Of a DNA stretch of 64,000 nt, positions 16,743-60,600 are shown one piece after another. The DNA lies in contig NC_088308.1 of assembly GCF_910592395.1 (NCBI RefSeq), forward strand, positions 26,551,501 through 26,615,500. Reading direction: 5' to 3'. Each line of letters begins with the position of its first letter. The first letter of the stretch is position 1. The DNA is from Lineus longissimus. Lineage: Eukaryota > Nemertea > Pilidiophora > Heteronemertea > Lineidae. A program made the position numbers and the translations under genes. The notes under the pieces were generated by a model. The model searched no databases, was not told the origin of the DNA, and saw only the letters and a program-made list of their open reading frames with translations.

Positions 16743-16759
16743 GCTGATCTGCAAAGATA

Positions 16760-33600: not shown

Positions 33601-36600
33601 TTCGTTAGGCTGCAAATTCAATCAATAATAGATCTCGTCAGTGCTACCCAGATTGGGAAATTGCTCCTCCATTTTTTAGGGCGAGGTTCGAGTTTTTCAG
33701 GATGGGTAAACTGGGCACTCGCCACTCAAACTCAACTTTTTCAAAGTCATGGAATGAGCAATGTGAAAAGGTGACCTTTAGTTCATGTAATTCTTACTGG
33801 GAGGGAAACTAGACACAAGACACAAGACAAAGACAACACTCTGAGGAATGATATGGAAATGCCTGGATGGCATGAAACTTATCATAAACTTGATTACAAA
33901 TCTTGGCCTTGCATCCTCAAATCCCCACAATACCTTTTTCCCACTGGGTTTAAGAACTGGTGCACAAACGATTCCTATGCCTGTGAGAAGGTTCTGTCGG
34001 CTATTCAAATTCGAGGAAAGTCAAAAGGCAAGCAGGAAGACCATGTACAAAACAAGAATCTTAGGAGGAGTGGCTGCTTCACTCACGGGAGGACCGAAAG
34101 ATGCCTTACTTCCTCTGGGCCTGGAGTGGGAGGGGTGGGTTCAATTCCCACCAACAGACTTGGACTAAACTCAGGGGCATATACTAATGACAGCTTCTTA
34201 CACAAACAACAAACAGTGAATAATCCGTAAGTTGGTCCACACACTCCAGGGCGACAAAGTTTCTAAAGCACTTATTCTAAGAAAACAGATCAAGTTCTGT
34301 AAGGAAAAGAGGCAAAGGCTGGAACACTGGAACAAGGAATCTAAGATGGTTGTGAGTCTTGAGGGATAAGGGTAGCCAACAGAAGGAAGGATCTGCGACA
34401 GTGGGTTGCAGGGTAAGGCCAGACCACCTGATCCCAACACCTTCACACTATTACGGCCCAGAGAGCCGAGACGGAGAGGCAGACTTTTCTGTTCATGGCT
34501 TTAATTTCAGGAAATCTCGTTGTTTCCTCTAATCTGGAAATCTGTACAGTGGTGCCCGAGGTGGCAATACAATGAACAATTGTTCATGGCTTTAATTTCA
34601 GGAAATCTCGTTGTTTCCTCTAATCTGGAAATCTGTACAGTGGTGCCCGAGGTGGCAATACAATGAACAATTGAAAAAAAGAAAAAGATCAGATAATTCG
34701 TTTTAAACCACAGATATCAGTATATTCAGGTCACATTTCAGTTTTGCCCCTTGGCGATTTGGAGATCAAACCATCCTCCCATTGCAGGCCTTTGGACTGA
34801 TTCAAAATATGCTCAATAGTTTGGAAATATCCAAAGTGAAAGGCCTGCTAATGGCAAGATGGGTCAAACCGCATGCAAATTACCACCCCTTGCGCCACAA
34901 TTGTTTTTATCCTCTTGGTTGATTTCGGCCTTTAAAAATGTGGTTCTCGAACCAAACGCCAGGGCAGGGAAAACCAATCAAGAAATCAGATTCTCGGAAT
35001 CCCGATTTTTGAGAATTGGGTGGCCTGGACAACAGACAGGTAGAAGAGTGCATCTCGTTGCAGGCTACTGTGAAGAGGTGGACAGTTTGGAAATTATGAA
35101 GTCCTTTTTTCTTAATCTTTCAATTCACTTTGTTTTGTAGTGTAAAAAACAACAATTAAATGGCACAGATGACAGGCACCTTGGTATAAATTGATGCTAA
35201 AACTGAGAAGAACTAAGGCTAAAACGCAATAAGGACAGTTCAACTCTTCCTAGTGATGGAAGAGAGTAAAATGGGATCAAGGCCAAAAAATTTGGGTAAA
35301 AATCACAGCTGAATTTGTTCATTTATGTTGTTTTAGTGAATTGCAAACTGCATAATTTTGTTCAACTTAAAAATAACTTAAAACTCTAACCAAACACAAA
35401 GCCTACATTATAATAAACTAAGCAAATCTGAATAAAATGGGTAAACAATAACACAATGAACAAAACAAAACACCACTTTCCAGAAATATTTTCGAAAGGC
35501 GTCATATTTTTCCAATGAAATGCATCGTAGATACCTCAAAGTATTGTCACAATACCTTTTAGATCTTCTCTCTGACGACAGCTCAATCGAAATGTATTCT
35601 GGAAAATGATCACATTTGTCGTTTGTCCACAGAAACAGGACTCATAGATTTGTTGCTATGGTACAGCTAACAAAGCAAGGTAATCTGTCGGCCTACCTTA
35701 TTCCACGAGTCGATGGTTGTAGTACCCCAGCTGGATGATGAGGGTGTTTTGGGCTTAGCACCAGAGTTCCACTGATTAGCTTGATTTTGAGGATTGTTTT
35801 CCCAACCGCTGCCTTTTGCCTGCAAGGATGGAGAAACAAACACTTGTATAACTCGACTGCAGGAAACGATCAATCTCGTTGGATGAAAGGCTGGCACTAA
35901 CACAATTGACCCACCAGACACCATCGGTGACCTCAAAACCTCAGAAACTGTGCTTGCACCTGACAGAGTTTCATTCATACATGTAACAACAATAGTTTCA
36001 CCTTGTAAACATGGCGCTCAAATTTTGGGAAGGAATTGTGTGTGTCACGGATTGGTGGAGAAAGTGCAGGGGACCAGCTCCTGTATGAAACCATATGATC
36101 AAAGGCAGCAATCATTGTGTCCACTTTCCCCAGGAACCTGATGTGACCCGTTCTTGGTCTGGCTGCTCACTGAGCATTCCCATCCAGCACTCTTCTATTT
36201 ATGTCCCAATCAAGTCAGAACCATTCAACTCAATACAAGTACCTCCATATGAAGACTTTTTAATAAAGCCATTCCCCAAGTGACAATGACATAACTTGTT
36301 ATTATGACATGAAATAGATTACCACGTTCAATTCTCCACAACTCAATGTGCCGAGGCCAACAGAGCCCTTTCAATTCTCAACAGTGAGATGTGAAAAGGT
36401 CAATATATACACACTATTGATTGAAATGATGTAACCAATGGACTTCAGGTTCTGGGACTCCCAAAACTGATCTGCCAGGTGAATTTGAAGAAGTGAACAT
36501 GACTTACCTGCGGCGGTGGACCAATAGCACTTGTCCAGAGGGCGTTTCCTCCACTGTCAACTTTCTGCTGCTGACTGATGTCACCCCAACCCCTCTCAGG

Positions 36601-39600
36601 CTGACTGGACGGTGGTTGTTTATCCCAGACGGCAGAAACATCATCTGGCTTTGGACGTGGGGTTGGCGTATTAGGTGTAGTTGGAGTGCTTACGCTGTTC
36701 CAGTTGGAGACTGGTTTCGTCTGACTGGCAGAAGGATCACCCCAATACGACGTGCCAGTATCGATGTTTTTCCTCTGCGTTGGCGGCGAAGGTTCTTCCC
36801 ATCCCATGGGCTTAATCTCCTTTTTCTGCAACTGTGGTGGAGGTGGTGGAGGTTCGGCCCAACCGCCACCTCCGCCATTCCCACGATTATTTCCACCATC
36901 CCAACTTGATGTTGAAGTCCTCTGAGGCGGCATCGCAGGTGGCGGCTCCCCCCAGCCAACAGGAGGACCAGCACTATTGCCACCACCAGCAGCACCAGCA
37001 TTTCCAGAAGCACCGCTACTGGCTGCATCACCCCATCCACCGGATGGATTGCTTTTCTGACCATTATTATCACCCCATGAACCTGAACTGCGATTCGATC
37101 CAGCACCATCCCAACTCGACGTTGATCCTCTTGGACCAGGAGCAGCACCCCAGTTGGTACCCCCACTGGTATCTGGAGGCTTGGGACCTCCCCACTGATT
37201 CTGACCTTGGCTGTGACTTCCATTAGCACTACCCCAAGCAACATTAGCACTAGGATTGGGATTAGCACTTGTATTCATCCAGTTGTTCTTATCCGGTTGT
37301 GGTTGCTGCTGTGGAGGAGGAGGAGCACCCCAGTTGTTGCTGGATTCCTGAGGTGGAGGCCCGTTCCACGTATTACTACTCGCATAATCATTATTATCAC
37401 CCCATCCTCCTGATCCGGAGCTGGAAGTTGACACTCTTGATTCGGAATTCCAATTCTGTTGCTGAGGTGGCGGTTGAGGAGGTTGGACTACAGCATTTGG
37501 CATCGCTTGTTTCTGGTTTTCCCATATGGCAGTTCCGTTATTGACTTGTGTATTCCACACATTGGAATTAGCACTCTCGATCTCACGGCGTTTAGTGCGA
37601 GGCGACACTTCAGATTCCCACGACAGATCCTGTTTGACTGGTCGCTGACCCCACCCATCCTTTGCATTCACAGCACGAGATATCTCCATATTACCTAAAT
37701 GCCTCTCATTAGGTGCATTGTTTGCAGCAGTGTTAGAAGGATTACGAACAGTATTGGCAGAAGAAACGAGTCCTTTCCCGGCAGCCTGAGCCCAGGTGCT
37801 AGGTTGAGTTTTGGCTGGATTGGCATTCATTGGCGTGTTCATTGGAGTGTTTTGGGCGCCCCACTGAGCTGGAGGTGGGCCCTGTGCAGTGGAATTTTGT
37901 GGAGGTGGAAGATTTCCCCAACCACCAGACTGTTGAGGGATACTGGTCTTGTCTGGTTGTTGTGGGTTCCATCCTGTCGCCGGATTAACTGGGTTGGGAC
38001 TAGGCACTGGACTAGGTTGCCCCCACCCCTTCGAGTTGTTTTGCTTGGCACCAGGTGCTCCCCAATTCTGCTGTTGGGTAGCACCGCCCCATTGGTCTGT
38101 TCCATTCCTTATTGCAGTTCCATCACTCTTACCCATATTACTGGCATTTCCTGAATCCGATATGTTCCAAGCAGTGTCCTGATTCACTTGGGGTTTATGA
38201 ACCCCTGTACCCAAATTACTAATGCCCTGCCATAGCACAGGATTACCAATAGCCCCTGGTGGTTTATTGGCAGCCATTTGAGGTCCATTATTGTCAATAA
38301 ATTGAGCACCAGGTTTTTGTGCTTGCATGGCATTTTGTGGTCTCTGATTGCTACCTTGGGCAGCATTGTTCATCCCCCAGCCACCAAGGCCAGAGTTAAG
38401 TGCATTATCACCAGCTGCAACATTTTGAAAGCTTTGCATATGAAGTCCTTGGTTGCTCACAGCAGCAGAGGTCGGCGGATTACCACCCCAACCAGTGGAG
38501 TTCATATTTCCCGAGGGATTAGCAGCTCCGAAGCCCCAGGGGGAATTAGCGTCCATTTTTGTGTCATTAGGAGTACCTCCCCAGCCATTGGAAGCACTTT
38601 GACTTTTAATGGCACTTGACCCCTGACTTGACTCTTGACCTTGTTGCCCTGGATTGCTTGAGCTTGATATCACAGATCCTGATTTGACTGATGCGTTGTC
38701 ATCACCGGCTTCGGAGGCATTCGAGCCCTGGTCGGCACCAATCGATGGCCATGCCTCCTTATCCTTTGTGTCGACGATTATGTCATTCGTGTTCGCTGAA
38801 CCACCCCAGCTACTCTCAGGGTTCTGCCAGGTCCCGATCTCCTGGCTATCACCCTGGTGGGAAGCAGAATCTGAAAAACAGACCAATGCAACATTTAATC
38901 ACACAGAAAGAACATTTAAGGACAGTTAATTTGGTGAACAGCCTGTAACCTGAAATATTTTGTTTTGGGGATTCACTTTAAACTTGGTCTGAACTGAAAG
39001 GGTCAAGAGAAAAAATAATCAAATGGCTATCCTGGAGGAAAAAAAGAATACAAGTGGGTTATGCCAAAAATAGGAATCTTATCCTTGAAAAAATTCAATT
39101 ATGGGAAGGAAAAATATGTTAGGGAAAAAAAAGGTCAACATGATTTCATACAGGTTGTTAGACTTTGCATCTATCTTCAACAGTTTCCCATCAACGGCTG
39201 GTCTGTCAGCAGGCTAGATGAGGAAGAACTCTTGAAAGCCAATCTATCATTTTACAGTGAATGTCACTTGCCACCAGTGAACCCCTTTCCTTCAATATGA
39301 TGAAGATAAGGCTTAACTGGAGCTACAGCTACAGGGTAGTGCAGTGGAACTTGACTACAGAAGCACGCAGACCACATCAAGGCAACAATAGACAAAGTAC
39401 AACATGTCACGCACCCCACATTAGCTTTCGACACTTTCTTAAGACAGTTAAAACTGAGAGATCCCCAGGGCAGCAAAGGAGAATCAAAATTTCCGTATTC
39501 AGTAAGCTTGACTCAGATATCAGTTTTTGTTTTTCACAAGGAAGGTAAGGTGAGGAAGGAACAACTGATCAAGTGGAGCTATTGACAAGTGTTAGAAGAA

Positions 39601-42600
39601 ACCAGCAAGTGTTCAAGCTAATGATGCCTGCATACCCTGGGAAAACTGCCAAGTGCCAATCAGATTACAGGTCAAGTTCAAATATGATTTGACAACAATG
39701 TCGGAAAGATTAGTAGTTTTCCAGGTTCAAAAGGATCGAATAGTCTCAGTTTTAACCTCATAATAAACCCATCCATTCCATGTTCAAAATGACACCACTC
39801 AATAATTTTCAGTTTCGCTCTCAGTTTTACAATGACGCCACCCACTTCCCACTTGTTACAAAACCTTCCAACAGCTGACACTTACATCCTTCTGTCCACC
39901 CACTACCCGTAGTTTGAGGCCCCAGGCTCCAGTTATTAGCCTCATCGTCATCACCCCAACCTGGGCCTCCCCACTGAGAGCCCTTTTTACCACCTATAAT
40001 TAGAGAAGAACATTGCATGTCAAAGAAAGTAGAGCATTTACTGGCTCGCATCTGAACCACTTCCCTACCACTTCACCTGACTTGGTTAGTTTGATTTTTT
40101 GTCAGTTTTTGTCAAGGTCAAGTTCAGGATTTCATGTTTAGAAAACAAAGACTGGTTAGTATATTCAATGGATTCTATTAACAGACCTGGCCCTTTGTGG
40201 CTGGGTCAAATACCGAATCTTAAACAAGAAGGCCACCCTGTTACAGTTACACTAAATCTCAGTTGATCCAGAAGAGTGTGCACAATGGTTTTCTGTTTCG
40301 GTACTATCTTGGTCAATCATGTCAAACAGTGCCCAGTGCACACAATAGTAGACATTGCTACAGTAGCAGCCCTTCAACAGCTCCCCAAATCCCAACACAG
40401 AATGAAAAGCACGACTAAAATGAGCCGAATAGTTTAGCACACTTGTTGTGGATCAACTTGATGGTACCCAAAAGAAACACAAATTCGCCCTTACCTTGCT
40501 GCATTTTTTGCTGCTTCTGTTGCTGTTGCTTTTGAGCAAAGCGAGGCGGTACCTCACGAGGTGGGTATTGTTGTGACTTCTGTTGCTGAGTCTGTAACAG
40601 CGGAGAGCTATTCTGTTGTGGAGACTTGGGTTTATTATTCACAGCCTGTTGTTGATCAGTCTGTTTCTGCTTCTTCTTCTCTTCGTCTTCTTTAGCTTTT
40701 TGTTCAGCTTGTTGCTGTAACGAGAAACAAAGTCAGTTTAATTAGCTCGGCCATTATAAAGAGTGACCACCTGCAATAACGAAGCATGACATTCAAAAGC
40801 ACATGAGACATTGTCAGACTCTATAATTTCATGTTACTGCAATGGCTATTGAGCATTTACATGTTTAACACTGCTAAGAACTGTTGTCGGATCAAGTGAA
40901 GACCCTCATACATTTATGATTTAGTCCAGAAACAGTGGTAGCATAGTAACAAATTCAAGTCACAATGCTCTACAAGGTGTGATAGCTTCCAAGCTCAGAG
41001 TACTGATAGTATCATGGCTGGGTTCCAAATCATTCATCTTGTGAAATTATACATCCATGGACTGCAGGAAACACTACTTTCAGACTTGGTTTTATCTTCA
41101 CTGAAGCAATATCACAGTCAGATCACAAATTCATACCCAATTCTTTTAAAGACATGATAGATCTGGGACAAGACTGGCTAACATGATTAAGTTAGAATCT
41201 TGCTATTTATACCAGAAATAGTGGTTGAAAGTGGGTATGTGAGGAGCCATGGCAAGTTTGCCCAAGCTCCACGCAAAGTGTCCAACAAGTGACAAGTGAA
41301 AATCGTACCCATAACCAATGCGTGCAAGAACAAGCCTGTCATAAGTGGTAAAGTTCAAGACATGCAATTTGAGCATGTTGCCCTTAACCTTTAAAAATTG
41401 ATCTCGCAAGCTTCCATGACACAAGATTTGGTTTACTTCAAGATAACCATCTTGATCAAGGCTACTTTCGAACAATACATGGAATGGCCAAAGTGGTAAA
41501 ATCGAGCATTTCCAACCTGAAGTTGTAGAGAAAACCAAGCAGCAGTCCTACGGTAAAGTTTCCCAGGGGAAAGGTTACCTTCAGCTGTTTAGCAGCAGCA
41601 GCTTTTTTCTTCTTTTCTTCTTTTTCGCGGCGTTTTTCTTCGTCTCTTAGACGTGCCTCCTCCTCTTCACGCTCACGTTTCTCTCTCTCAATACGCTCCT
41701 TCTCTTCTCTGCAAACAGATATGGAATTAGAAACTCGAGGTGACCAGTCAAACCATTCCATTTTTAACTCTGGTGAAGCACAATAATTAGTATTCCACAA
41801 AATTTTATTTTGTGTCGCTGGAAGCGCGTTCAGTGTATGATCTTTTTGATTGAGGAAAGATCACCAACTTTGGATGGTTCTCACAAATTACGGTTTTTAT
41901 GAATATCACAAGGCACTAACATATCCAGAAGTGGCAGCCGAGGTTGTGGGTGACATGACAATTCCACCCAAGCAATGTTAGGTGAGACATGCTATTAGTA
42001 TCATCTAAGGAGGCATAATAACATCACCACTTTACCTACTTTTCTCTCCTTCGCTTATCTTCAGCTGCTTGTCGAGCTTTTTCCTCTTCTTGACGTTTTT
42101 GTTTTTCAATTTCAGACTGAAACCAAGACAAGGACAGCGTTGAAAATGCTTTCAAATGGAAAGGAATCATTGACCAGAAATCAAATTAGTAATCATCTGA
42201 AGGACTGTCATCACCTTCAATAGTTGTTTGGATGAAGAAACTAATGCCCCATTAAATTGGCTCTTCCTTTCAGTTTGCACTGCTATGGGCAATTTCATTG
42301 GCAAAGACACAATCAGGGCGATGAGCTCAAAAAGTGTTTTCTTTACAGATGACATAGTCCAGATCTACATTGTCTACATCCTGGACCCTTTTCATCACCA
42401 TCAGGAATACTGTATTGTTGTTGATACACAAGACACTACCTAATACACACAGCAGACAAGTACCCTACAGGTAACATGCAAACTTGACGGACAAGTAGAA
42501 CTTATTTCTTTTTAGTTTTAGTACAGGGTGGACAACAAAAACCTACACATTTAAAACAAATGACTGACTTCACTTAACAAGTTGCCATGATACGAGATGC

Positions 42601-45600
42601 TGTGTTAATATTTAACTCCACAACTGTCCAAGACAGAAAAAAAAAGGCGTGATCTTACATAATTTTATGACAGAGATGTCTAGTTACATTACTTTGGTAA
42701 CTGTTAATTGCTCAGCGTTACAAAAAAGCTGTGATGTGCAATATCACAGACGCGTGATTATTACATCAAGTGTTAATTTGTGACTAAACATGTTAAATGA
42801 GTCTCTCATTCGAGGCAAGAGAACAGAGCAAAGCATAAAGTATGTATCCCATTGTATGGGCTCCTGATCAATTTATTGAATATTAGTATTTTTGAAGGGC
42901 ATAGCAACAATCCATGGTATCAGAAACAGTCCCATGTTTCATTGATGTCTCCACCTACACAAACATGAAAGATCTTTCCAAACAGTCTCCAAATGAATTC
43001 ACTTACTTGTTTCTTTTTTTCAGCGCGCTCTTCTTCTAATTTAATCTTATCTGCTATCTCGTCAGCGATAGCTTCCATCTCCTGTGAGAATAGAGGAGAA
43101 GCTTTCAATTAGACTGATCACTTTAAAGTCGGCATCAAACTCAGGGCGCCACAACAATGACAGTCTACAAATCATTTTTATTTATAATTTTATAATTTTT
43201 ATTCGTAATTTTAATAGATTTGACTTGTTGTGAATCTGCTTGAAACATCCAACGCAGAACAAAACGTCATCAGCTGAATTCATGGACGGTCCCTTAGAAA
43301 CAGTAAACTGCTGGGAAAATTCACTTGAAATTCTCTGGAAAGTTCTTCACCGAGCGTTTCACTATCTGTGTCTAGTCATGCATGAACAAACTAACTGTCA
43401 CAGTTATGTTGAACACTCAGCATGCAGCATTCAATTGAGTGTTAGGGGAGCTTCTAGCACTTGACATATCACTAAGAAAGCAAGGAGAATACATACCCGC
43501 TCCCGCCTTCTCTGTTCAGCGGCCTTTTGTTTCTTCGACTTAGGCTTTGGCTGAAAGAAGAAACGGCACTTTCAAGTAACTCTTGCCTTTTCTTTACCAC
43601 AGAAAACAACGCAACACCTCCCCAGGGAACCCATTTACCCATCTCTAATTTATCGATAAGAAAAATGCCCTTCTGGCCTCAACACCCACACACCTACTAA
43701 CTACTGACACAAAGAAAATACTGCGTCTCATAACAGACTTATCCATCATAAATACCCGATTCAACAACATGTAATAAGAGGCGTTTACAGGAAGAGAAAC
43801 CAAACATCGCCCAAGCTACACTCACAATATCAAGTATCAAACCCAGGAAACCTTTTATGACAAGCTCAAATACCAACATGTCCCTTCAGCGCCAAAACTA
43901 GTATGATCAACAATAACATTATGACAATGCCCATACAAAAATCTAGCAGCTATCATTAAAAAAAAACATTGAGAGGAGCTGACAAAATAGGTTAAGTTTA
44001 CATAAGTCATTTCGAAAGTATTCGTACATCTTCAGTAGGGTGACATGACTGTGTCACACCCTTCATTCTAAAAAACGTCCTCCATAAAGACTGACACTTT
44101 CCAAGTCAGTTCCAATTCTGTGCAGTATTTTTTATTTACCTTCGACACAGGCACTTGATTCGATGGTTTAACCTTTTGACTATTCAATTTCTTGGAAATT
44201 TCTTCTTTCGCGGCTTCTTTCTCTTCGAGTAAAGTCTCCCGCAAAATTTCTAACTGCAAAGAGCACAATGCAAACATTATTAGATCAGGAGAGAGTGCAC
44301 TCATTAATAACCCCATGTCCACTAAAGTGTAGGGGGAAACCAGGGTCCTCCTAGAGGGCTCTTGTGCCATCAGAGAGATCAACCATCTCAATCACATGGA
44401 GAAGTATTCGGACTGGGAGTTGAGTTAAACACCTCAAATTTGACAGGCACAAAGGCTTTAACACTAACTTTTTACCCACAACAGGAGTGTGAAAGTTGCA
44501 TTATGTATTGAAGTCCAATTCAATGCTAACTTCTAAATAATCAACTGACATGAAGAAAGTGACTGGGAAGATCAACTTACCTTCTCAGGTGTAAACTCAT
44601 TTGGAATGAGCTTACCTTTCTTTCGTCGATTCTGAAAGAAAAAAACAAATTATTTTATACAACAATTCCTATGGTTGGAAATATTATGAACGTTGCGGTA
44701 GAATGTACCTTTGGCTGATATCAATATCACAATATTTTGGGGAGATAATCATCATTTGGTGGCCTATATCAGTAACGGCCGTCTGCTGATGCTAATGATC
44801 TGCAGCATGAATACTCACCTCAACGATTTCTACAAAAGTTTCAAATTCCTGCTCTCCTGTGTCGTTCTCCTCGTCATTCTCTATACACATGTCATCCACC
44901 TGGCCACGAACACCTGCAACAAACAACAAATTAATCATTCACAGTTCTGTTTCCATGTCTACTGTATTCTGCACCTGTATCCAACCACTCCAGCCAAAAG
45001 ATATTGCCAATTTTGCAAACAGCTATCAATAAGTACACAATAACCACAGTCATTGGCTAGTTATCAGGCATGTCAGATAGTCAAGTTCCTTCCTTATTTG
45101 TCTCACGGAATCAGTCTCTGTTCTAAATACCACTTTCACAGAACAGGGAAAACTGTTGAAATGATGAAACCGATGTGGTCAAAGAAAATAAATAGGGAGG
45201 TGTTTTGAAATTCCAATTTAACACTGTTACTCACCTACATGGGTATTTGTGAAAAATGCATATATACTGAGATCTGAAAAGGTGGGATAATATAGAATTA
45301 GAACAGAAAAAGAATCAATTCAATCCCAAAAAAATTTCATCAACTAGAGTGGAAATTGGAATAAGCCTTAAATATTTTACTCCCAGCCAAAGCTGCTTAT
45401 TTCTCAGTTTCTCAGTAGCAGACAGTCTTGCTATGATCACAAATTTCTTTGAACAAATCATCATTCATTGCGCCATATTTCAACCATATTGACTTGACTT
45501 GACAATATGCCAGGAAACAATAAAATGTAAGTTGCAGCATTCATTCCTACATACAGTTTATGCAGGAACTGGAATGTACCTTTCATATTCATATAGTAGG

Positions 45601-48600
45601 CCAACACGGATCTACTAACATCAAATGTGAATGAGTGAATACCATTTTTGGCTGTGCCTGTGCAGGCCTGTACAGAATGCCAGTGGCAGCGTTTTTTATG
45701 ACACATTTGTTCAGCAGATGATTTATGATGAATGTCTACTTCCTGAACTACACTTGGTCCATATCCTACAGTGAAATATAGCCATGTGGGCATTTTCCGG
45801 ATAAAGTCTATTGAACTGATTCTTATTTTATCCTGGAAATGGAAGTGTTCAATTAGTTGGATATCTTACCTCCTTTTCTGGACAAGAGGACATCTTTAAA
45901 AAGTTTGAAGAAAACCTAAAATGACAGAAAGAAACCAACATAAAAATCACTTGGCAACTCTAAATCTAGTTTTAGATCCTCGGCGGAGGAGTACAAATTA
46001 CACTGAATCTGAAATTAAATTCCACATTGCTGCAAAGACAAGCGACATCCTTTCATATCACCTATCTTATAACTGTCATGTTTTTCATCGAACCTTGCTG
46101 ACAATAAGATGAGGTCAAGTTCAATATTATAAGAATGCAGGTTTGGCCCCAGTTGAAGTCGGAGTCCAAACACAGCCGAGTTGTTGCCACATTGTAGGAC
46201 CAGGCCAAGGGCTGTAAATTTGTGAATTTCTGAGGTCTGCTTCAGTGCTTGACTTCGATTCAACCACCAAGAGTGAAGTCATGGTATTCAACATAGTTTA
46301 TTATTTGCTAGTATTGGTAACAATTATCCATCTCCGGGTTACCAGTAAATTCACAATCCAAGAGCGGAGATGACGTAGTTTGATGCAATTTATCATTTAT
46401 AAATCCATTAAACAATGACACATATTTTGTCTTGATGCTGTAATCGAGCATTGGTAACTCATTCCCATCCATGAAACTCAGGTGGTAGGCATAGGTGTGG
46501 GCAAATCACCCCCAAAATATACGAAAATAATAGAATTCTCGGCTAAAATAGGCAATAACTTCATCCTAATTACCTAGAGACTTTGGTTTTTTCAACACAC
46601 AAGGGCCCCCATCAGTTATTTGGTGTGTATTTACCCTACAAAACTACTGAATTATGCATAGCGAATGTGTACATTATCTCTGTACACATGTATTCAATAC
46701 ACGGTGTACATCGCACTGTACAATGAATACATTGAGAGGCCATATTTATTTCAAGTCGGCCATTGCAATAAACCTCTCAAATAAGCACATAAATTCAGAT
46801 GAAGATGATGAAAACGTAGATGAATATCCACAGAAGATATTAGATTATCCTTCTTCACAGTCCTTAGCAATCCTTATGGAATATTTACCTTTGAAATACC
46901 ACAATCTTATCCTACCCTGTGTGACTGCACTAATGTACATGAAGCACTACGCCATGCACTGATATTCAAAACTGAGGGACCATCTCCAGAATGATAATGA
47001 CTTCAGAGAATATGAAATTTTGGAGTCAGGGTTTTTCATTTGAAAATCACAACAAGATACAGGTAAAATACTAAAATATATGGAAATACATTCTTCTTCT
47101 TTTTGTCCCAGTTCAGCTCAGGTAGTTTAGTGAGCAAAAAAATTATGTTAGTGTTATACTTTTTATTTCGATGAAATGGTCCCTTTGCTTACCAACTATG
47201 AGGTATACTGTGATTATCATGACAAAAGTGTGTGCTGACAGTTACGAGTTTATTATTCAGTTATTTTTTGAAAAGTCTTGCAGGTTGATGCCCCTTGAAA
47301 GTACTTCCTTGCATGAGGAGCGTACTGCTGACCAGAAAATCCCGCAATTGTCATACATTCTCCACTGATCGGGCAACTAATCCTCTCACAGAACATTTGC
47401 CATAACATGAGAACCTTTGATATATGGCCAATGAAGCAGAACAGTTGACAGGCGGACTGGGCACACTAAAGAAACTTGAGACTGTCAGATAGTCTGCATC
47501 ACTTTGTAATGGGTTTGCTACCGTTACCACACATCCTGTCCATGTAAGTGAAATTCTGGTCGATTGAATTAAATTCAAATATTGAGAAAAGGCAAGGTGC
47601 TGTGCCCTGCTAAAATTCTTTAGCTGAAGCACTAATATCCTTCATCCGTCATCTATCCAGGTACTGAGTTACCATGGAAACCAGCGGGAAATGTAAGATT
47701 TGAGATCCTCCAAGCTGGCAGTGTAGGGTGCATGCTGTATAGACGGTTCCCATGATTGGAACAAGTATCTACAGCTGTCACTCGATCCCCTTGAAAATAC
47801 TTCGATGACAGGTTTGGAAAGAAACCCATCACAGCGGCAACTGATTGTGTTTCACCATGGTTCCCCAAGTATCTACGTTAGGAAGTCGTATATGTCATAC
47901 ATACCTTATTACTGTCTACATCTCTATCTTCATAACCTGAAAAAGACAAAATCATCAAGTATGAGAAATCACATTCCAATTCTCTCATGAGGGCAGCAGT
48001 GGATTAGAGCTCATACACTGCTGATGAGGGTTTATATGGTCCTTTTCTGGAGGGATTAACCTGAAAAACTCTGATGGCAGGGTAGAAAGGGGCGAGGCTG
48101 GGCTCCCGGTTTTGTTTCAGGACAGGGAGGGTCAGTTGTTGTAATTTGTGAGATTTCCCTGGGCTCTACGCCAATTATCATTAATTGTGTTATTTCAATT
48201 CAGTAACCTTTTTTTTACTTTGACACAGCATACTGAATTGTTTACCTGGGTTAGAGAGTTGTAGGCTATATATGCCTAGCTAGGCTATTTCTGTTTAGCT
48301 TTATTTATAGAAGATACCAGATAGTCTAGAGGAATCGACTCAAAGAGAACACAAGCCAAGACCACAAGCCAAGACGCTACTGGGAAGGCTTTCCAAACTG
48401 CACATCACCCCAATGCAGCAAAACTGACCAAAGAAGTAACCTTCCCCAAGATGACCTTCCAAATTAAGAAGCCGTATATGGTCAATAAGGTCCCACAACA
48501 CACGGTGGGCTTGGAGTAACAGGGCCGTATTTCACTTCTTCCTCCTGGAGGAACTCTGAAACCCTTTTTGTGCGGCTTGTGGTATTCGACTCGATGACTC

Positions 48601-51600
48601 GACGACGCGATGACTCGATGACGCGATCAAGTTGGAATCTTTTTAAAGAATATCACTGCCTGGACTGTAATTTATACATAGAATCATAAGTGGAGGAAAA
48701 TAAAAAAAGAACCGATCATTACCAACCCCTTTCCAGCTGTTTTCACCGTATCTAATCCGACCATTTTTCGTTTCCTACAAGTTCGCATTTTTGATAAAAC
48801 CATGCGCCATGTTGCTATGCAAGCTTACCGTCAATACAGCTAAATACACCTAAATATAGCTGGTTCAGATCAACCTCCTACCCAGGTTCTTTACGAGCAG
48901 AAATTCCAATGTTAAAATGACACGCGAGTTCCTGGAGACAAGGTTGGCTCTGGATATCCGTTCAGCACGGCAATATTATGGGCCGAATTCATAAAGGGCG
49001 TTTAAGGGTTAGACGTGTGTAACTTCTCCTTAATCAGTTTCAGGGCCTATTCATATTCTGTGAAAATTTATATGAAGGACCTGAATCTCTCCATTCAGTA
49101 GTTAAACGCTGTTTTAAGCTAAACGCCCTTTATGAATTTGGCCCTAAATGTCCTATACACCTTTCCAGAAATGGGGCGCTGAGTGTCCGAAATAGTGATG
49201 TCATAAGGGGAAACTAGGCCTGTGGTGGAGGGACAAAGGAGATAGTCATGGTTGACCAACACACTTGAATGCCTTTAATGACGGACAAGGGGGAAAAAGT
49301 TAGTTCCAATGCAAGCCACCAATTTCGGAAAGCATGTATAGGGGCTGATGTATTGGGGGGGGGGGGGCAGATGTCAAGGGGCGGAAGAGGGACTGAGTGA
49401 CTGAGTCTAAAAAACTGCACATATGCGAAATTCCGATTGTTGACAGACTACCACATGACATCTGACATTGGCCACTAGAAGCTTGTTTGTCAATTAAATC
49501 TTCGGTCATTTTGCATGCTATGAAACTTCCGCGAGTCCTTTAAATATCAAAATCAATCGCGGGGACCAATCTTCAGTGGCCATGGCTGGGGGGGGGGGGG
49601 GGAGGGGGCACATCCTTCTACATACCGTAGCTGGGTATGGGAAGGCCGAGCTAAAACCTCTGCTGTTGCAGCGGTAGCCCGGAGACCAGGATCATGGGAT
49701 TCCGTATTTTAGCAAAATCCATAGCAACGATCGCGTCATCGAGCCATCGCGTCGTCGAGTCATCGAGTCGAATACCACAAGCCTTTTTGTGCAACCCACC
49801 ATTATCTTTTGCAACTCCTGAAAAGTCAGTGTCAACCTCAACGTGTCACACTGCATTGTAGACCTGACCACCAATGACTACCCAAGGCAATCATAACAAC
49901 AAATGAAAACCAAATCGAAAATGTGAGAATTTGATGGAGTTGCAAGTCAGTGCACAGTCGCCATGGAAACAGGTTTATAGATTTTTACAGACCCTCAAAT
50001 CTATGGCTATGCTGGTGCCTCCAATGATACTGGTAGTGGTAGCACAGGCGACACTGGTTCTAATATTTCGTACAAGATATCAGGAGTGGAGCAAGGTCTC
50101 TCTTGAGACTTGGCAGCCAGGATCACAAGGTCAATACTCCATTGAGAGGGGACCACCACTGGTAGAAGAATAACAAAATTTCTCGACTTTGATCTGGATG
50201 CACATGCGCATGAATGGTTAATGTAGAAAAATCTGGTGCCTGCATGCATAACCGGACAAAAAATCTGCACATTTTGTCCACCGCAGAACTGAGTCAAAGT
50301 CTTCCAGTGAGAATTCAAGGTCAATTCATGTGTATGCTGACACACAGGGGTCACTCTGTGGAGGTCAATTCTGCTCCTTTTAAAGACTTTTTTCGAATTC
50401 AGAGGGGAGGCGTGCATCCAAGGAGCTTACATCACCAGTGGAGAATGGTCAATTTGTGACATATCGTGATCCTTTTCACTCTGTCACACCAGACAACCAC
50501 GTCAATATTGACAGCAGTGGCTCATATCATCGACTACTAACAGTCACTGGGTTCTACCTATGTATAGAACTGTTATTGATTATCCTAAATCATGCAGGCT
50601 TTCATATTCACTGATCACTACTCATGTATTCAATATACCTGTATGCTCCAGAGGCTCTCCACCGATGGATTATTTAGGGGGTGACATAAACATTAGCCAA
50701 ACATTGCCAATAGCTAAATATGTAAAGGTCTTGATCGGTACAGTAAATGCTAACACTAAATAAGGACCAGTGGATATTTCGTGAATTGATAGTTTCAAAC
50801 TAAAATACCCCATCTCCTGCCAAAATTTGCCAGTATCAGTGACTGCTTGGGTGAAGCACACATTCTACAAACTTGACGGAGCCCACACCCTAACAGACCG
50901 AACGTGTTTCTTCGAAGTGGGCTACTCAAAGGTTAACCAATCAAATTTGGTCGGCTATAGTGAAGTTCTGATAGCTAGCAGTCAATATGGATCCAATAGC
51001 TGATGGTCAGCCTCTCTGGGTCCAGTTCTTCTTTTTCATATTTAGAATCTCTGAGTCTGCAGGAACCTTCCTCTCCTCACAGAATAGACACTAGGAAGAA
51101 CTGAAGAGCTCCGATGGTAGATATTACCTTTACATTCCATGGATTCTCAGTGAGAGATATTTTTCCTCCTCCTCATACAACCTGTAGGTAAACTGCATCA
51201 CAACACGCCAGCAAACTTGTCTTTACAAAACAGATGCACTAGTAAGATGTAAACAATTTACATAAAAATTTGCGTAAAATTTACGAGGTTTCCCTCTTTC
51301 TCCATCTGGTGATATAAATCTGAGGAGCCCTGACAAGTACTTCACACTCTGTATCGATCGAACAAGCTGTCTGCTCAGTAGAAAGTGGCCATTTCGGATT
51401 ATTACCAACCTCAGTGACACGGTCACTGCTACAAACAACTTGGCCAGACAACAAGCCCAAGTGTGAGATACAAAGTGGTCGCTCAATATCAAGATCAATC
51501 AGAGGCCACCAAGCACTGCCACCTCACAGACTGGTGCAGAAGCACTTATATACTTGCTCCACAGCATCTAAATGTCAGTAGGTATTTCTTAAACACTTGC

Positions 51601-54600
51601 CGGGTCATTGCCACTCAGCAGTATAGTTTGGCCTATCTAATGGAACCGATGATTAGGCCTATTAAAGCAAGGCGGAAAGAAGAAGAAGATGCACACATAT
51701 TATCAGGCAAATATTCGCCTCCGCTTCACCAATGGCAACAGACACCTCCATGAGTTTTTACAATGCTCATAGAAAGGTAGCTCTTGGTAAACACAGACAT
51801 CATGAGGAATTGCCAACAAGTATGTTCAGCATAGCAAGCAGACGATTTACTTATATTCTGCAGCCAGCAGGCGGTTAACCCCTTCCGTTCACCTTGCTAA
51901 AAAAGTTGATAATCTAAGTGAGTTGCATGTGCTGACCTCCTTCCCTTGGAGGGCAATTCGGCAAGTCTGCTTGTTGCAAATGTTTACTTACATGAAGATG
52001 TTAGTTTCCAGTATGCTTTGGTCACTTCTTCAAATTTGGCAACTGAACATTTGTCCTGAAAACCAAAGAAATTCGACAGTTACAATAAAAAGAAAACTAA
52101 TTTGTTGAGGTTGATCACGCTTTAATCATGATTGCGAGGAGTGAACGATTTTGGACGAACTTCTAAAGATGTCAACCACGTTGCTCCTCCAACATGTCTA
52201 ATCAGCAACTATTCTACATCTAAGGGGCTCTCTTGACAACAATTTATATCCCAAATGCATGAAAGGGTTAAAGCAAGGATATGTGAGCTGCAGCTCCTGG
52301 CATTAAAGAACTAATATTGACCTTGTGATCAATACAGATAGTTTACAACAACCGCAATGGTAAATGAAGAATGCACTGACCTAAGCTTGAACAAACCAAA
52401 TTTTATCACAGATAAATAACTGTGTGGATTTACTGGTTTACTGAAGAGACATGCACGGTCATGTTCAACAAAATGGCCACCATTAAGAGGATTTTCAAAA
52501 ACTGATTGTGATTGTTTCAAGATAGTCAAATAGGCCTTAAGTCTCATTTCTTATCACCCCCAAGGCCAAGTTGGACAGGTCAACTGGTTGGCTAGGATGA
52601 CTGTGGTCCAGGTTATGCAGTCCTGGGGTGAATGTGTCTCTTGTGCTGGCCAAAGCCTATACCTCACCAATATCTGACATGTGGTTGTTCCCATTCTATA
52701 TAATTTATGCATTTCCATCAAACCGCATTAGCCCAGATTGTAGGTGTCATGTCAACAGGCACATTGGAATAAGACCACAATGAGGATGGATCCCACGAAT
52801 TGGAACATAGTTTTTTTGGCATCATGTGTGTTTACGGCCCCAAAGTGTCAAGCTTTCAGAATTTATGAGGCTAGCACTGAACACTGCATGTCACATAAGT
52901 ACCCAATAATCAATACTGTAGATATTGTAATTTCATGTTTATCCTACAAGTCACTCAATATCACCAGCTGTGTCAGTGTTACTGCTGACCTGTGTTTACA
53001 CTGGGGGTCACCTTCACAGGGTGAACCAACACCGCCGGTAGGCTTCCTTTAATGGTATATTTCCACTAGGATCTTTTTATAACCAAACAACCACCAAATT
53101 TGTGCATAACTTAGGCCTACTAAATTCTGCGATTTATTGCTGTTAAATATGCTGCCATCAATAAGGAGGAACATTGCGATGTCAAATACATTGTCCGTTA
53201 ACAAAAGAGATATCTCAGTGGGAGAGACACCATTTGAAAGGGGGCTTGATAAGAATAGCACGGACCACATGAATAAGTGGTGATAAAGCTCGGGGAGAGA
53301 TCTCAGCTATGGGACTTTCGACACGCAGGTCGATAGACAAGGCAATGGATAAAATGGCTAACCAACCAAGACATCCTTTTTTTGTTGCATCCAACATGAT
53401 GGCTATGCTGGGCAGGCACCAGCTTCTTAGGACATCCTGAGACAAGAGAATTACATTACAGTGACCTGCTATCGTAGTCATTGCAACCGCTAATAAAAAA
53501 CTCTCCTTTCCCAGCCAAACAAGTTTGTTTGATTTGAAAATTATTACCGGTTGCAGCAATGACAGATTCTCACTGCGGGCACCTGCAATGACTTCGAAAA
53601 TGGAAGAGTCTTTTGTCTCATACAATAATAGTCGAGGTGTGTTGCAGGACGCTTTAGCGCCTAGTACCAATTAACAACTATGGTCAGGTCTTTTGAACAC
53701 AAGCCCCTGTTTGCTCGGGGACATCACAAATTTCACTCTTAGTTTTCCAACTTTGGAGGAAAAAGAGTTAACAATGTGGATCGAGTCATTTGGGTTAACT
53801 TGACTAGGCCATAGTATTGCAAACTGCGTCATCAGTATTAGCCAGAATAATTTGAATAATTGATGGAGATGAGAAAATTACTTGGTACACACATACACAA
53901 TGAAATACAGTTTACATTATTTTGCTATGGTGATATGTATAAATACATGCATATATCAAATAACCTTATAGGGCTCCAGGCTTGTTTTACAGACATAAAG
54001 CCTCTTATAACACACACACAGGTTCAATAAAATAAATATCGTCAATATAGGCTTTATACTAGCAGCGAAATTTCATGTGTGACCATTGTATTGTAAAGGA
54101 TTGCATAATGCAGTCAACCTCAACATGACCTGTCCAGAACTATCGTGAACATGGGCCTGCACTTAGCTTCTGACCATTCTTGGGGTGGTCAGTCCTAATA
54201 CGATCAGTTATTAGGTCATTACAATTCTACCGTTTTTGGCACATTAAAGAGGTTGAATAGCGCCTCCAGAAGCAAGCAACAGCGCCACCCGTAGCAGAAA
54301 TGAGAACTGCTTAGTGACGTCATGGTTTCCATATACGGCATCTCATTTGCATATTTTTACAACCTTATTTACTACGAGTTATAAATATGCCAGTAGCACG
54401 TGGATCATGCCGGGCGGCGCTGTCAGGTGTTTCCACTATGGGTTACATAATCGGCTACAAAGAGGCCAGTGTTCTAGTAAATGAAGTTAGCAATGATAGC
54501 GAAAGAATGTTAGTGTATGTTACGCAGTCAATAGCGATAGTAGTGAGTTGGAGAGAGGAGAAAATGGAAAATGGAGAGAATAGTAGTATGGATTTCGAGT

Positions 54601-57600
54601 CCCAAGAAGAAACTTTGCAAAGTTTTCATCAAACTGATAATCATATTCCTTCCTTCTCTGTCTCCAACAATTAAAAGTTGCTGCAGTCAACCTGATGCGT
54701 TTATCCGCGAGCGAATCGACGAGACAAGCATTTTTCAAGCATCCGAATGGTACCTTACAGATCCGCAAGGGGCGCGTTACCGAAAATGTTGCAAAAATCA
54801 ACAACGTGATCGTAAATATTGTCATATTTTTCAAAATGAGAGTATGTAAATGATACGCAGACGGTAAACCAATGAAAGGCCAGTATCTATTGAACCTTAC
54901 AAGTGATTTGGGGGCCTTGAAACTCCTTATATTTATCAATGAAACCTTATTCCCGCCTAAGGTTTTGACCGGGCCGTCCAAAACTCCCCATTTTTTGGCG
55001 GGCCATTCCCTTTAAGTGTATTTGAGTAGGACATACAAGACTGCAAGCATTGGAATTCCATACACTTTAACATTCACAATATATTGAAAACGAGAGGACA
55101 GAACAAACTTGCGCCAAAACCGATAACGGGTCTACACTCAAATGTTTATAAAAACCTGTTTTGAACAGAAATGAGGCACAACATATTATTAAAACGCAGC
55201 CAACCTGAACACAGTTATTTAGAAGATAACCTCCAATCTATTAATAGTTTAAACGAAGACGAAGATGTTTCAACCATTGAAACGAAACTGATAAGAGCCG
55301 CCAACTGTGATATTTTGACAAAGAAATGACAAACATAAGGTTGACCAAGACATGACTTTGCATAGGGTTATATTTGGTGACTTTAGAGTAGGGGGACATG
55401 CTTGATTGAGAGGTTTCATGATCTGGGAATGACTTGATCAGAAAGAAACATTAGCTCTTGAAGTTGAGCTTTAGAAATGAAAAGGTACTAATTTTGGTTG
55501 AATTCAATTCAACTTTGATTTTGCTAAAGAGGCGCTCCAGACTCAATGTACCCTCCTGTAGGGAGAGGGGGGTGTCTGGAAATTTCGGCAAATACGCATA
55601 CACCTGTATAGGGGAACCTTTTTTGAAAATTGGGGTTGTGATGTGCACATACCTTAGTATGTATGGCTAAGCAACTTTATAATTCAGTCTACAGATTAAT
55701 AAATCACACGTGAAATAGATTGGAAGACTGGGATGAAATGGAGAAAAGAAGGATAACTCTGGAACATACCTTATTATTAGGTCGGTCAGGATGATATTGC
55801 AAGGCAAGACTTCGATAAGCTCTCTGGATATCAACTGAAAGATCAAGGAAACAATGTTTATCACACTTGACAGGTTTTGTGAAGAAATTGACAGGCAACA
55901 AACAAATTCTCATTTCAACTCTTGTTTCAACCTCCATGTCAAACCGACTCCAAGACACTCTGACAAGACCCATGGAAATCTGAAAGTGGCAAAACACAAC
56001 AAATCTCTTGATTTTAGGATTATCATTTAAAAGACCAGACATTCGGAACTCTTTTCAGACAAATACTGTAGCCTACATTGCCTCCTCTTTCTGCACCAAA
56101 GTGCTACTACATGTATATCACTGCGGATCAATACAATCCATTAGGTCCTCTGATCCTCTGGCATTTTGATAACAATTTTTCCAATATATCATGCACACTG
56201 TTTCTTCCTTACGAGTCCTATAAATATCATTGATTTCAACCCAAAATAGAACAAGCAATAACTAGGAGTCTTGATACAATATTCCATGATTATTTTTTCA
56301 TAGCTATAAATGTTCCTAGTTTGAAACATGCATTTCTTTTTATTGTTGTCCTTTTTGCATGGGCCATTCACAGATAAATGATCAGCTGAGAATAATGGTA
56401 TTAAGCACAAACTGACTAAAAAGTCAGTAGAAAATGCAAATATGAAACAAAGGGTTAAGAGAGATGCCATTTGACTGATAGGTTTGATTGATTATAATGA
56501 TTGTGTTGACAGTGTCTGCAAGTATCATTTTAAACACTTCTATTGACAACAATAAACTCACACTATTCAAGTCAACAGTCCATATAAAACAGGCATCATC
56601 AAAATCACACATCGACCATCATCAGATTCCTTTATTATAACCCGCATACGGCAGAGACAGGCGATTATGTAAACATCATGGCCAGGGGGACAACACGTCA
56701 CTCCATCAACAACACAGCACAATAATGAGCTCCAATCAATAAAGGTTTCAAATATGGCCGGCTTATAGTAATGGCTGCCGAGGATAGCATTCAAAATGGC
56801 GCAGACATCACATAGAAAGCTTTCAATCATATTATTGATTAACTTTGCTACAATGCAATACAGGAGTATCTGAAATGAACTTTATAACATGGCCAGACTT
56901 AATGAAACGTTTCATGGGGTAAACTGATCACCAAGATAGCCTTAGTCAAGTGCAAGAAGAACTGTCTATGGAGATCATTTATGTGACCTAGATTCTCATC
57001 AGGGTCATATCTGTCCTTGGATGAACCACAAGCAGTGATTTTGAAATATTGCACCAGGGTTGCACAAGTCTGAATAAAAAGACCCCATTTTCCAAAAAGA
57101 AGGCCCAAAATAGTGTCCTTCATCAGATGCAAGAAGTCTACACGGACGACCTTCCTCATTAATAAGAGTATGGTTCTATAACCTAGACGTAGACTTGCGT
57201 ACATCTTCTTTTCACTCCAGATATGTAAATAGAAGAACTACATCTTCCTATAAACATTACATATACAAGAGTTACAGCAAACACTCCTAGAGGCTGCTCA
57301 GCATCACCATTGGAAACCCTATCCATCATAAACAAGGTCTATACCAACCCAGGCCACTGTATATAATTAGTACATCAGACGGCCTCTCTAGGTTTGTTGT
57401 TGTCAATTAAGCGCCTCAATAACCCACTAATAACCCCTCTCAACACCTATATTGTGCACAAAAAGCAGTGAAAGCATTCAGACAATGGTATTACCTGTTA
57501 AATGAGAACAATGATAAACAGCTTAATCCAATAATAAGATCTGGCAAGTCAAAATAGAATAACCATCACATAAGGTTTCAGCACAGAGTTCCAATGATTG

Positions 57601-60600
57601 GGGCTGAACGAGATTGTTTGTTGTGTATTCGCGATGAATCCACTGAGTTCTCGCAATATCTACAACCTACACCACATAAAAATGTCTAATCGTAGTCCTG
57701 ATACGTGTGTGGGGCACACTAAATTACATGATCACGAATATACACTAGCAAATTTGAGAGCCAGCTGATAGAATCACAAGTAAATGCATCCCCATTAGTC
57801 CAGTCTACACAAAATATTATGTACAGTTTTGATCTGGACGCCACAGCCCATGCTCAGAACAGTCACGTGGCCTAATCAGCATAAAGTGTCCTAGCCAAGC
57901 CATACATTATTGATCAGGAGTCCGGGCAATGCTCACAGTCTGTGCATGCACCAGTAGTGCTTCTATTTATAATACCCATTGATTGAACACAACTCAGATG
58001 AATACACTGCATTTCTACTTTTGAAAAGCGGTTTAGATTCGTAGACCTACAAGTCCCCTTAGCGGGCTGTTCAAGGTTGCGTAGTCACGGTTTTGGCAAG
58101 TAAGCAAGCTATTTGGCCCAATATGTGGTATCACTCGAGGTAGTGGCGGGGAGGATTTCAAGGTGCCTCTCCCCAATGACTTCTACAAATTTGAATTTTT
58201 TGGATCTGAAATTTCCAATTTTTTCTGGGGGTGGACACATTTTCAGACGATTAGGGTTCTCGCTCTGTCACTGCAGGGTTGATATCTTTTCTCAAAATCA
58301 CTTCCAAATTCATAATTTCATCTATAAATAGCACTTTAATGGGTTTGACTTGGCAAGAGATAAAATCATTGACACTTGTCTCAATTGCTCCTTTAGTATC
58401 AGATCAAGCCATTTAAAAAAGTTTATCTTTTACAGTCACCAATTTCTTCATTCCCAAAAATAGGCACCCATTTAGCCTTGGATATCAAGAGTAAACCAGC
58501 CAACGAAGAGGCCCGATCATGATTCTATAACTGATACCTCATATCAAAGTTAAATGTGTTTACCCACTAATTGACCATGACACAACTCACCACGTGAGAG
58601 TGATTTGATAAATTTTAACTCTCCATAAAATGCCTTGAATAATGAATGTCCTGTTTTTTTGCCTGTGGGTGTGAAAGGGTTGTGAATAAACAGGCTTATA
58701 CTATTTCAAAAACATGTTCGCATATGAAATACGTGGCAGGAAACCTGTTATTGCATGTAATGTAGAGTAGGAAGTTGGACAACGCAATCCCACTAGTCCC
58801 TACATTGCGTTGGCCCCATAGAATGGAAATATTAGCATGGATTAACCCATTCGCAGGGTAATACTTTTCATGTCACTATGATCAGCAGGTCATAGGTTCA
58901 ACAATAACCACCGTTTCATCCCCCTGTCCATGAGAAAGACACCAAACCCTACATTGCTTCTCCCCCAGGTCAGCATCATGTCCTGGGAGAGTAATACAGT
59001 GAAACCTCCTTTAGCGGACACCTCTCTATTAAGGACACCCTCTCTATCAAGGACACTTGTTTTGGTCCAAAATTGGTTGTCTTCATTCATTCTGACCTCT
59101 ATAATCAGGACACCTCCCTATTAAGGACAGCAATTGTCAGTCCCAAGGGTGTCCTTAATGGCGAGGTCCTACTGTACTCCCAGTCATATCTTATAGCTAA
59201 TAGAATCTGGGATAGCCCAGCAGACTTTCACTTCGTCGAGCCGCTGGTCACAAGGACGTTGTATGGACCAAGAATCGAGAACGCTGTACTTTTTTCTGAA
59301 AATACATGCAGCGACGCATTATCCCGCGGTGGGAAATACGAGTCTGTCAATTTCATATTAAACTCTTAGCAACAGGTGTTGGTGAACAGCTTTCAGGCCA
59401 TGGATCTGGAATAAAACGCAGTCAATATTGTAGTCATGCCACAGAATAATCAGCAGGTTAGGAGGAGATTAGACTATGGTACCGTAACACCTCGCTTAGT
59501 GGTCACCTCGGTAAGCAGGACACCCTTCTATAAAGAACACTGATTTGGGTCTGGAAGTAGAATTGGCAATAATGTTGTGGAGAAGAAACAAGACTATAAT
59601 TGCCAAGTTTCAGCAAATCTGCCTGTATAACATCTGCACTACAGCAGTATTTGCTTCTATTTTACTGAGCGACAGGTAACTACAATGAAGACAATGCCCC
59701 CATGGTGTAGGCCTTAAAGGTGATGACAACCGGTAGATTTTTATTGAACTAACATGTATAATCCTAAAACCACAATATCACAACACTTGACCCATTTTAT
59801 ATCAAGTCACATCAAGCCTACATGACATAAAGGTTTGATCACATGTGCAAAATATCAATACATGATCCATACCAACCTATAGATTTCATGACTGTTGTCA
59901 ATAAATCATTTTAAGGACACCTATCTACGGCATGACGCATTGTCGGCATCGCAATATGTAATATTTCCTTTTCAATCAGGAAGAGGACTGTAGCGAAGAG
60001 TGTAATGATGACCTTATATCAGTTTGTTGACACCATGACATTTCAATCAGTCTTTTTATAGCCCCCCTCACCCCTTTGGACTGCAGTGCTTACGTGAACA
60101 GGTTCTGAATCACAAATCTAATGACTGTGAGTTTATTATCAGTTCTTTATATTTCCCCGGATCTTGAGTTCAAGTTGAGTCCTGTTCAAGCTACAATTCC
60201 ACCACTTCTGACAAACTAAGCTCTCATAACCAAATACATGAAATAGAGGCTTATGTATTTTGAACCCAATATTTACTGTTAACTTGCTCAAATGACCACC
60301 GTTCCTGGCAGGATGTCAGAGACCTGGACATGATCACACCAGACATTGTGGACAAGATCTTGAAGACCTTCCAGGAAGCCAGCAGGAAAAGGACCTGTGT
60401 TGATGGCTGAGCCCCTACTCCTTCTGATATTAAACCAGTACCAGAACAATCAAGTAGAGAGCAAACCCTCTCTGATTATTCAGACATCTAAGCCATCTAT
60501 GGTATTCATAAGCTTCCATCATTTCCAGCCCAAAGACAGGCAAGCCATTCGCAGACCACCAAAGACAACATGAGCTGCTTTGGCAAGAGACAGGTTACCA

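Follow-up and report, generated by a model that had tools for sequence, protein, structure and literature searches.

A predicted fusion of a J domain to the GW182/TNRC6 protein of the nemertean Lineus longissimus

We analysed a stretch of 64,000 nucleotides (nt) of the genome of the nemertean Lineus longissimus (NCBI RefSeq assembly GCF_910592395.1, contig NC_088308.1, positions 26,551,501 to 26,615,500 of the forward strand), hereafter the window, in which a GW182/TNRC6 frame on the minus strand runs upstream into a J (Hsp40) domain. A single gene is the simplest reading of the DNA at this locus, and a fused J-GW182 mRNA, the best single reading that the genomic DNA allows, probably exists. 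A sequence-only reading of the window had proposed such a fusion. The continuous frame, the J domain and the GW182 hallmark on which it relied were all recovered; the fused protein itself stays a prediction, and its junction between exons 11 and 12 rests on a weak donor. J domains catch Hsp70 and prompt ATP hydrolysis, and GW repeats bind Argonaute. Chaperones open Argonaute for loading, while the disassembly and reuse of Argonaute-GW182 complexes are less clear. To our knowledge, neither vertebrate TNRC6 nor Drosophila Gawky carries a J domain.

Thirteen minus-strand exons, from 58662 to 40495, join in phase without a stop, and ten further exons lead to a stop at 26424 (Table 1). The earlier count for the first part was twelve; ours includes a 32-nt microexon (47936-47905). 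The 23 exons are joined by 22 junctions across GT-AG introns and the open frame holds 2130 codons from exon 1 to the TAA ending at 26424, close to the approximately 2115 residues first claimed. With a candidate first exon included, the computed mass is 233 kDa. Along the frame lie the J domain with its HPD motif, a short stretch reading FFKLFKDVL, an acidic linker, an ER/K-rich segment, the hallmark PPREVPPRF, found in exon 13 (40714-40495) as had been read, and then the GW182 domains. These are GW repeats (exons 14-17), a UBA domain (exons 18-19), a Q-rich region with a PAM2-like motif (exon 20), and an RRM with the C-terminus (exons 22-23). There are 45 GW or WG dipeptides in the 2130 residues, GWG being counted twice, and none of them precedes residue 365. 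The UBA domain matches PF00627 with 24.4 bits (cut-off 22.4, E = 2.7e-5, residues 1290-1318) and the RRM matches PF00076 with 23.8 bits (cut-off 20.7, E = 4.1e-5). The RRM also matches the solved GW182 RRM structure 2wbr with E = 9.7e-28. The PAM2-like motif has the right place and pattern with weak scores (superPAM2, 8smo, E = 0.015; TNRC6C PAM2 peptide, 3ktp, E = 0.48).

The J domain, which had been described as complete with HPD and helix III, exceeds the Pfam cut-off (PF00226, 40.1 bits against 27.8, E = 3.9e-10, residues 11-64) and its HPD, encoded in exon 2, is intact. The match spans profile positions 2-54 of 63, with the end of helix IV unmatched. The closest solved structures are generic J domains, namely those of E. 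coli DnaJ (E = 3.5e-8), DNAJB8 and DNAJB2, and no particular DNAJC relative was found among the solved-structure matches to this part. Residues 93-248 matched no Pfam family at E ≤ 0.01, and a TRMT10C match around residues 111-160 was set aside as non-significant (E = 0.39). Residues 182-305 form the Glu/Lys stretch that had been read as a coiled coil. The charged stretch is there, with 69% charged and 7% aliphatic or aromatic residues, and its opposite-charge score at i/i+3 and i/i+4 has a z of 4.4 against 2000 shuffles. In composition and charge spacing, this segment looks like a charged single helix of the ER/K type and not like a coiled coil.

The exons that bridge the J domain and GW182 were searched for with a splice-plus-codon program that was given only the donor of exon 3 and the acceptor of exon 13, 11.3 kb apart. 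The frequencies of splice sites, amino acids and start sites and the U1 end used here were approximate values, and the codon usage came solely from GW182 exons 14-23. This blind search returned precisely exons 4-12 and none besides, with a score of 131.2. In 200 first-order resamplings of the same 11.3 kb the mean score was -1.6 (standard deviation 16.3, maximum 17.7), and none of the 200 reached 131.2. The splice sites of exons 1-12 all rank within the top 3.5% of the 4,959 AG and 5,059 GT dinucleotides on the minus strand of 84 kb. Because the blind recovery lies far above the resamplings and the splice sites rank so high, we conclude that the bridging exons are genuine coding exons and that they keep the phase between exon 3 and exon 13. 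Exons 9-13 also share one ER/K-rich character, which continues across the exon 11/12 junction. Exons 12 and 13 have no ATG ahead of PPREVPPRF; GW182 thus needs a coding exon upstream, and exon 11 is the in-phase one.

Base composition was measured after masking exons, splice margins and three repeats, in the 19 introns that had over 250 measured bases. On the minus strand T exceeds A in all 19. Observed/expected ratios of CpG run from 0.19 to 0.47 in introns 1-5 and from 0.20 to 0.52 in introns 13-22, of which eight were measured; for the genome, the median is 0.64 with quartiles of 0.49-0.87 (180 random 1-kb windows from 18 regions). CpG-rich 400-bp stretches within the gene, at 48-50 and 54-55 kb, fall on repeats. 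These two repeats, 48574-49783 and 54244-55018, give CpG peaks that could be mistaken for promoters.

Exon 1 begins at a splice acceptor and lacks an in-frame ATG; the 5' end must therefore lie beyond it. Upstream of the window, at about 70-74 kb, the skew diminishes and CpG increases, which suggests a transcription start there, although repeats in this region blur the signal. A first exon was sought in the same direction, and the best-scoring candidate clear of an apparent retroelement, 69878-69815 (outside the window, with a strong start context and at the edge of a CpG-richer stretch), was rejected since its score was reached by 69% of 100 shuffles. A CpG peak at about 65-66 kb, tried as a promoter, was judged by eye to be an element with inverted ends instead. 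Elements with inverted ends were seen in the upstream sequence L009 at about 960-1970 (by eye) and about 6600-7300 (by self-comparison). A Gag-like open frame with a zinc-knuckle-like pattern was seen by eye in the upstream sequence L010 (about 81414-80757 in window coordinates, minus strand).

The genome (391,118,348 bases in 30 contigs) was searched for further copies, and the best candidates were scored. Among these, all four matches to the GW182 C-terminus fall at this locus. The J-plus-bridge protein gave 18 matches, nine of them here and nine elsewhere, the latter confined to the J-domain part (query residues 9-87). No second locus with the bridging exons was found, and no retrocopies of the transcript were seen. 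Against bacterial and archaeal contigs and against viral contigs, the GW182 C-terminus gave 21 and 27 pattern matches, respectively, and no confirmed relative, as expected there.

We scored one-gene paths against paths forced to include both a stop and a second start. From exon 3 with repeats unmasked, one gene scored 131.2 and two genes 125.9, and the end exon of the rival path, which breaks in intron 3, lay mostly inside a repeat. With repeats masked the scores were 131.2 and 121.3, and the rival path broke in intron 11. Other exon penalties, again with masking, gave 152.0 versus 145.9 and 113.2 versus 103.3. From exon 1 one gene scored 137.0 and two genes 134.7, the rival path breaking at intron 2 and severing helix III from the rest of the J domain. 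As a control, two stretches inside the single-gene GW182 part scored 277.5 versus 276.5 and 262.8 versus 261.8, a gap of 1.0 each; the program wrongly split exon 15 with an intron and left out exon 17 in the two-gene path of this control. The stretch from the J domain to GW182 fares no worse than this control.

Several observations weigh against a single fused gene. The scoring above favours one gene but discriminates poorly, because the control inside GW182 gives a gap of only 1.0. The donor of exon 11 at 42040 (AAA/GTAGGT, the slash marking the exon end) has the weakest register-locked U1 energy among the 22 (-3.2), near the value of -3.6 for each of the donors of exons 14 and 17 within GW182. 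Four nt downstream lies a rival donor, TAG/GTAAAG, with a U1 energy of -6.7, whose use would make TAG the last codon of exon 11; summed position frequencies put the two donors level (498 for 42040 versus 503 for the downstream site). The acceptor of exon 12 is the weakest among exons 1-12. Intron 11 (331 bp) contains an AATAAA at 41809 and an in-frame ATG 53 nt 5' of exon 12, with A at -3 and G at +4. CpG-richer 400-bp stretches at 41301-42000 (around exon 12) and 42901-43400 (around exon 10) are not accounted for by repeats, and an inner promoter at either is possible. In the introns measured, G exceeds C in just 14 of 19, and the skew and low CpG would look alike for two neighbours on the same strand. 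No convincing first coding exon was found in the 20 kb read upstream of the window.

With the rival donor, the AATAAA and the in-frame ATG all at intron 11, this DNA could encode the fusion as well as a J-only product and a J-less GW182. The two donors themselves (42040-42035, minus strand) lie 4 nt apart, one keeping the frame and the other adding a stop, and a switch between them is possible.

The main rival to the fused gene, which we consider unlikely though well ahead of the others, divides the locus at intron 11 into a stand-alone J-ER/K protein that ends in exon 11 with DKRRREK followed by the stop, and a GW182 without a J domain whose start lies at 41761 or close to it. The first protein may end by read-through or by use of the downstream donor, and the two products may come from abutting genes or be isoforms of one unit; the second would be much like vertebrate TNRC6A/B. 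The better-pairing donor with its in-frame TAG, the AATAAA, the ATG and the poor acceptor of exon 12 all fit such a split, and the best repeat-masked two-gene path breaks exactly there. However, only 274 bases separate the TAG from the ATG, a space that would need to accommodate a 3' end as well as a promoter and a 5' untranslated region. The 53 nt that the ATG would add lower the coding score of exon 12 from 40.7 to 34.2, and both the frame and the ER/K character persist across the joint. If the downstream donor were spliced to exon 12, the stop would lie far 5' of many junctions, which would make such an mRNA a target of surveillance.

A border between tandem genes in one of the long introns, most likely intron 3 or else intron 2, would give a short J protein followed by a GW182 whose longer N-terminus begins at exon 4, and we regard it as improbable. 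Introns 2-4 are 3714, 4055 (intron 3, 51991-47937) and 1989 bp long and have AATAAA or ATTAAA sites, and the two-gene paths through intron 3 (unmasked, 125.9 versus 131.2) and through intron 2 (from exon 1, 134.7 versus 137.0) come near those for one gene. Yet the end exon of the intron 3 path lies largely in a many-copy repeat and vanishes on masking, and the intron 2 path splits the J domain before helix III. Exon 4 continues the phase of exon 3, and apart from the repeat edges intron 3 showed no single-copy stretch rich in CpG. Very improbable is a rare splicing-in of the J exons, or an accident of assembly or annotation, with no functional fused product: the model comes from DNA and a convincing first exon was not found, but the frame is open, the splice sites are strong, the HPD is kept, and the contig is of chromosome scale, built from PacBio and Hi-C data according to the assembly report (PMC8593623).

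In the fused reading, a single minus-strand gene would start upstream of exon 1, end at 26424 and produce at least one mRNA encoding the J domain, the acidic linker, the ER/K helix and the complete GW182, a chain of more than 2130 residues. The exon 11-exon 12 junction would be used in its frame-keeping form. The GW repeats would hold Argonaute, and the J domain would catch cytosolic Hsp70 and trigger its ATPase. The ER/K helix between them would keep the two at a distance; a straight helix of 124 residues would measure about 18 nm at the textbook rise per residue. The J domain in cis would give the silencing effector a fixed address for Hsp70. Since GW182 is thought to bind loaded Argonaute, the likeliest use would be remodelling, that is, the dismantling and recycling of Argonaute-GW182 assemblies and condensates after silencing, rather than the first loading of Argonaute.

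The predicted protein resembles known GW182/TNRC6 proteins (Gawky, TNRC6A/B/C) in having GW/WG repeats, UBA, Q-rich region, PAM2-like motif, RRM and C-terminus in the family order. Unlike in these, the frame upstream of PPREVPPRF continues through the ER/K helix and the acidic linker to a J domain. With class C J-domain (Hsp40) proteins it shares the HPD loop, helices I-III, the N-terminal position and an acidic and charged helical region that follows; it differs in that the J domain is joined to GW182 rather than acting in trans. In Zuotin/MPP11 a long charged helix likewise keeps the J domain away from the partner site, but these proteins are bound to the ribosome and have no GW182 part. Nematostella GW182 is reported at 185 kDa on blots, below the mass computed here.

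J proteins acting in trans have been tied to formation of the RNA-induced silencing complex (PMC5985592, PMC6204899). In the same sources Droj2 binds fly Argonautes and aids loading in vitro, with one paper calling it not essential, Arabidopsis J2/J3 bind AGO1, and S. pombe Mas5 is required for siRNA complexes (PMC5985592, PMC6204899). As in the present case, a J protein is brought to Argonaute or its partners (PMC5985592, PMC6204899), but Droj2, J2/J3 and Mas5 are separate type I (DnaJA-like) proteins whereas here the J domain would be inside the effector. A coupling of Hsp70 to the microRNA-induced silencing complex would be consistent with these published proteins. No published J-GW182 fusion was found in the literature searched, with most subscription papers outside its reach, and the available text of animal papers on small-RNA factors or GW182 does not contain "DnaJ" or "J domain". 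Automated public gene models may already show the fusion.

Elsewhere in the window, PDZ domains followed by a protein-tyrosine phosphatase (PTP) domain are encoded exon by exon on the plus strand (792-1370, 2074-2763 and 8617-9141). They make up a PDZ-PTP gene, which we take to be PTPN13-like. An intronless frame of 339 residues at 15756-16775 (minus strand) begins with MGKKQSK and has an NHL repeat match.

Table 1. Exons of the predicted J-GW182 gene and other features of the locus (window coordinates)
Feature	Position	Strand	Remarks
exon 1	58591-58662	-	J helix I and start of helix II side; internal, no ATG; acceptor in top 0.8% and donor in top 0.4% of AG/GT on the strand
exon 2	55770-55834	-	helix II and HPD motif
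exon 3	51992-52055	-	helix III
exon 4	47905-47936	-	32-nt microexon; recovered in blind search
exon 5	45870-45915	-	bridging exon; recovered in blind search
exon 6	44819-44913	-	acidic linker; recovered in blind search
exon 7	44581-44631	-	bridging exon; recovered in blind search
exon 8	44140-44253	-	bridging exon; recovered in blind search
exon 9	43497-43550	-	ER/K-rich segment begins; recovered in blind search
exon 10	43007-43081	-	closest in-frame ATG 5' of PPREVPPRF in the spliced reading; recovered in blind search
exon 11	42040-42116	-	donor AAA/GTAGGT, frame-keeping, weakest of 22; recovered in blind search
in-frame TAG	42036-42038	-	just beyond exon 11 donor; final exon 11 codon if donor TAG/GTAAAG is used
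AATAAA	41804-41809	-	intron 11; candidate poly(A) signal for a J-only transcript
in-frame ATG (AAAAATGG)	41759-41761	-	5' of exon 12 if the end of intron 11 is read through; candidate start of J-less GW182
exon 12	41579-41708	-	charged helix; recovered in blind search
exon 13	40495-40714	-	end of ER/K segment, Q-rich, PPREVPPRF
exon 14	39886-39993	-	GW/WG dipeptides begin
exon 15	36508-38870	-	large GW-repeat exon, 2363 nt
exon 16	35697-35819	-	GW repeats
exon 17	33484-33609	-	GW repeats
exon 18	31666-31749	-	UBA domain, first part
exon 19	31438-31495	-	UBA domain, second part
exon 20	29411-31213	-	Q-rich region and PAM2-like motif
exon 21	28678-28740	-	weak splice sites, top 9-10%
exon 22	27591-27661	-	RRM begins
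exon 23	26424-26924	-	RRM and C-terminus, stop TAA
repeat, inverted ends	48574-49783	.	in intron 3, outside the coding sequence of the gene; many genome copies, 96-100% identical to those scored
repeat	54244-55018	.	in intron 2; 39 further copies scored, 97-100% identical; source of local CpG-rich peak

The N-termini of vertebrate TNRC6A/B have a short E/K-rich stretch with no known use before PREVPPRF, which is also contained in the PPREVPPRF of the predicted protein. We tentatively suggest, as a possibility that we rate below even, that in this lineage, and perhaps also in the early bilaterian, GW182 is a J protein carrying its Hsp70 recruiter on a rigid charged arm, that the E/K-rich N-terminus of TNRC6A/B is a remnant left after loss of the J domain, and that the 4-nt choice of exon 11 donor switches between fused J-GW182 and a J-only product. 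Should the locus make two products, the finding would reduce to a J-protein gene abutting GW182. If the fusion is real, Hsp70 would be physically tied to the silencing effector, its role in loading, silencing and recycling would become testable, and the charged N-terminal stretch of some GW182 proteins, such as TNRC6A/B, would be accounted for.

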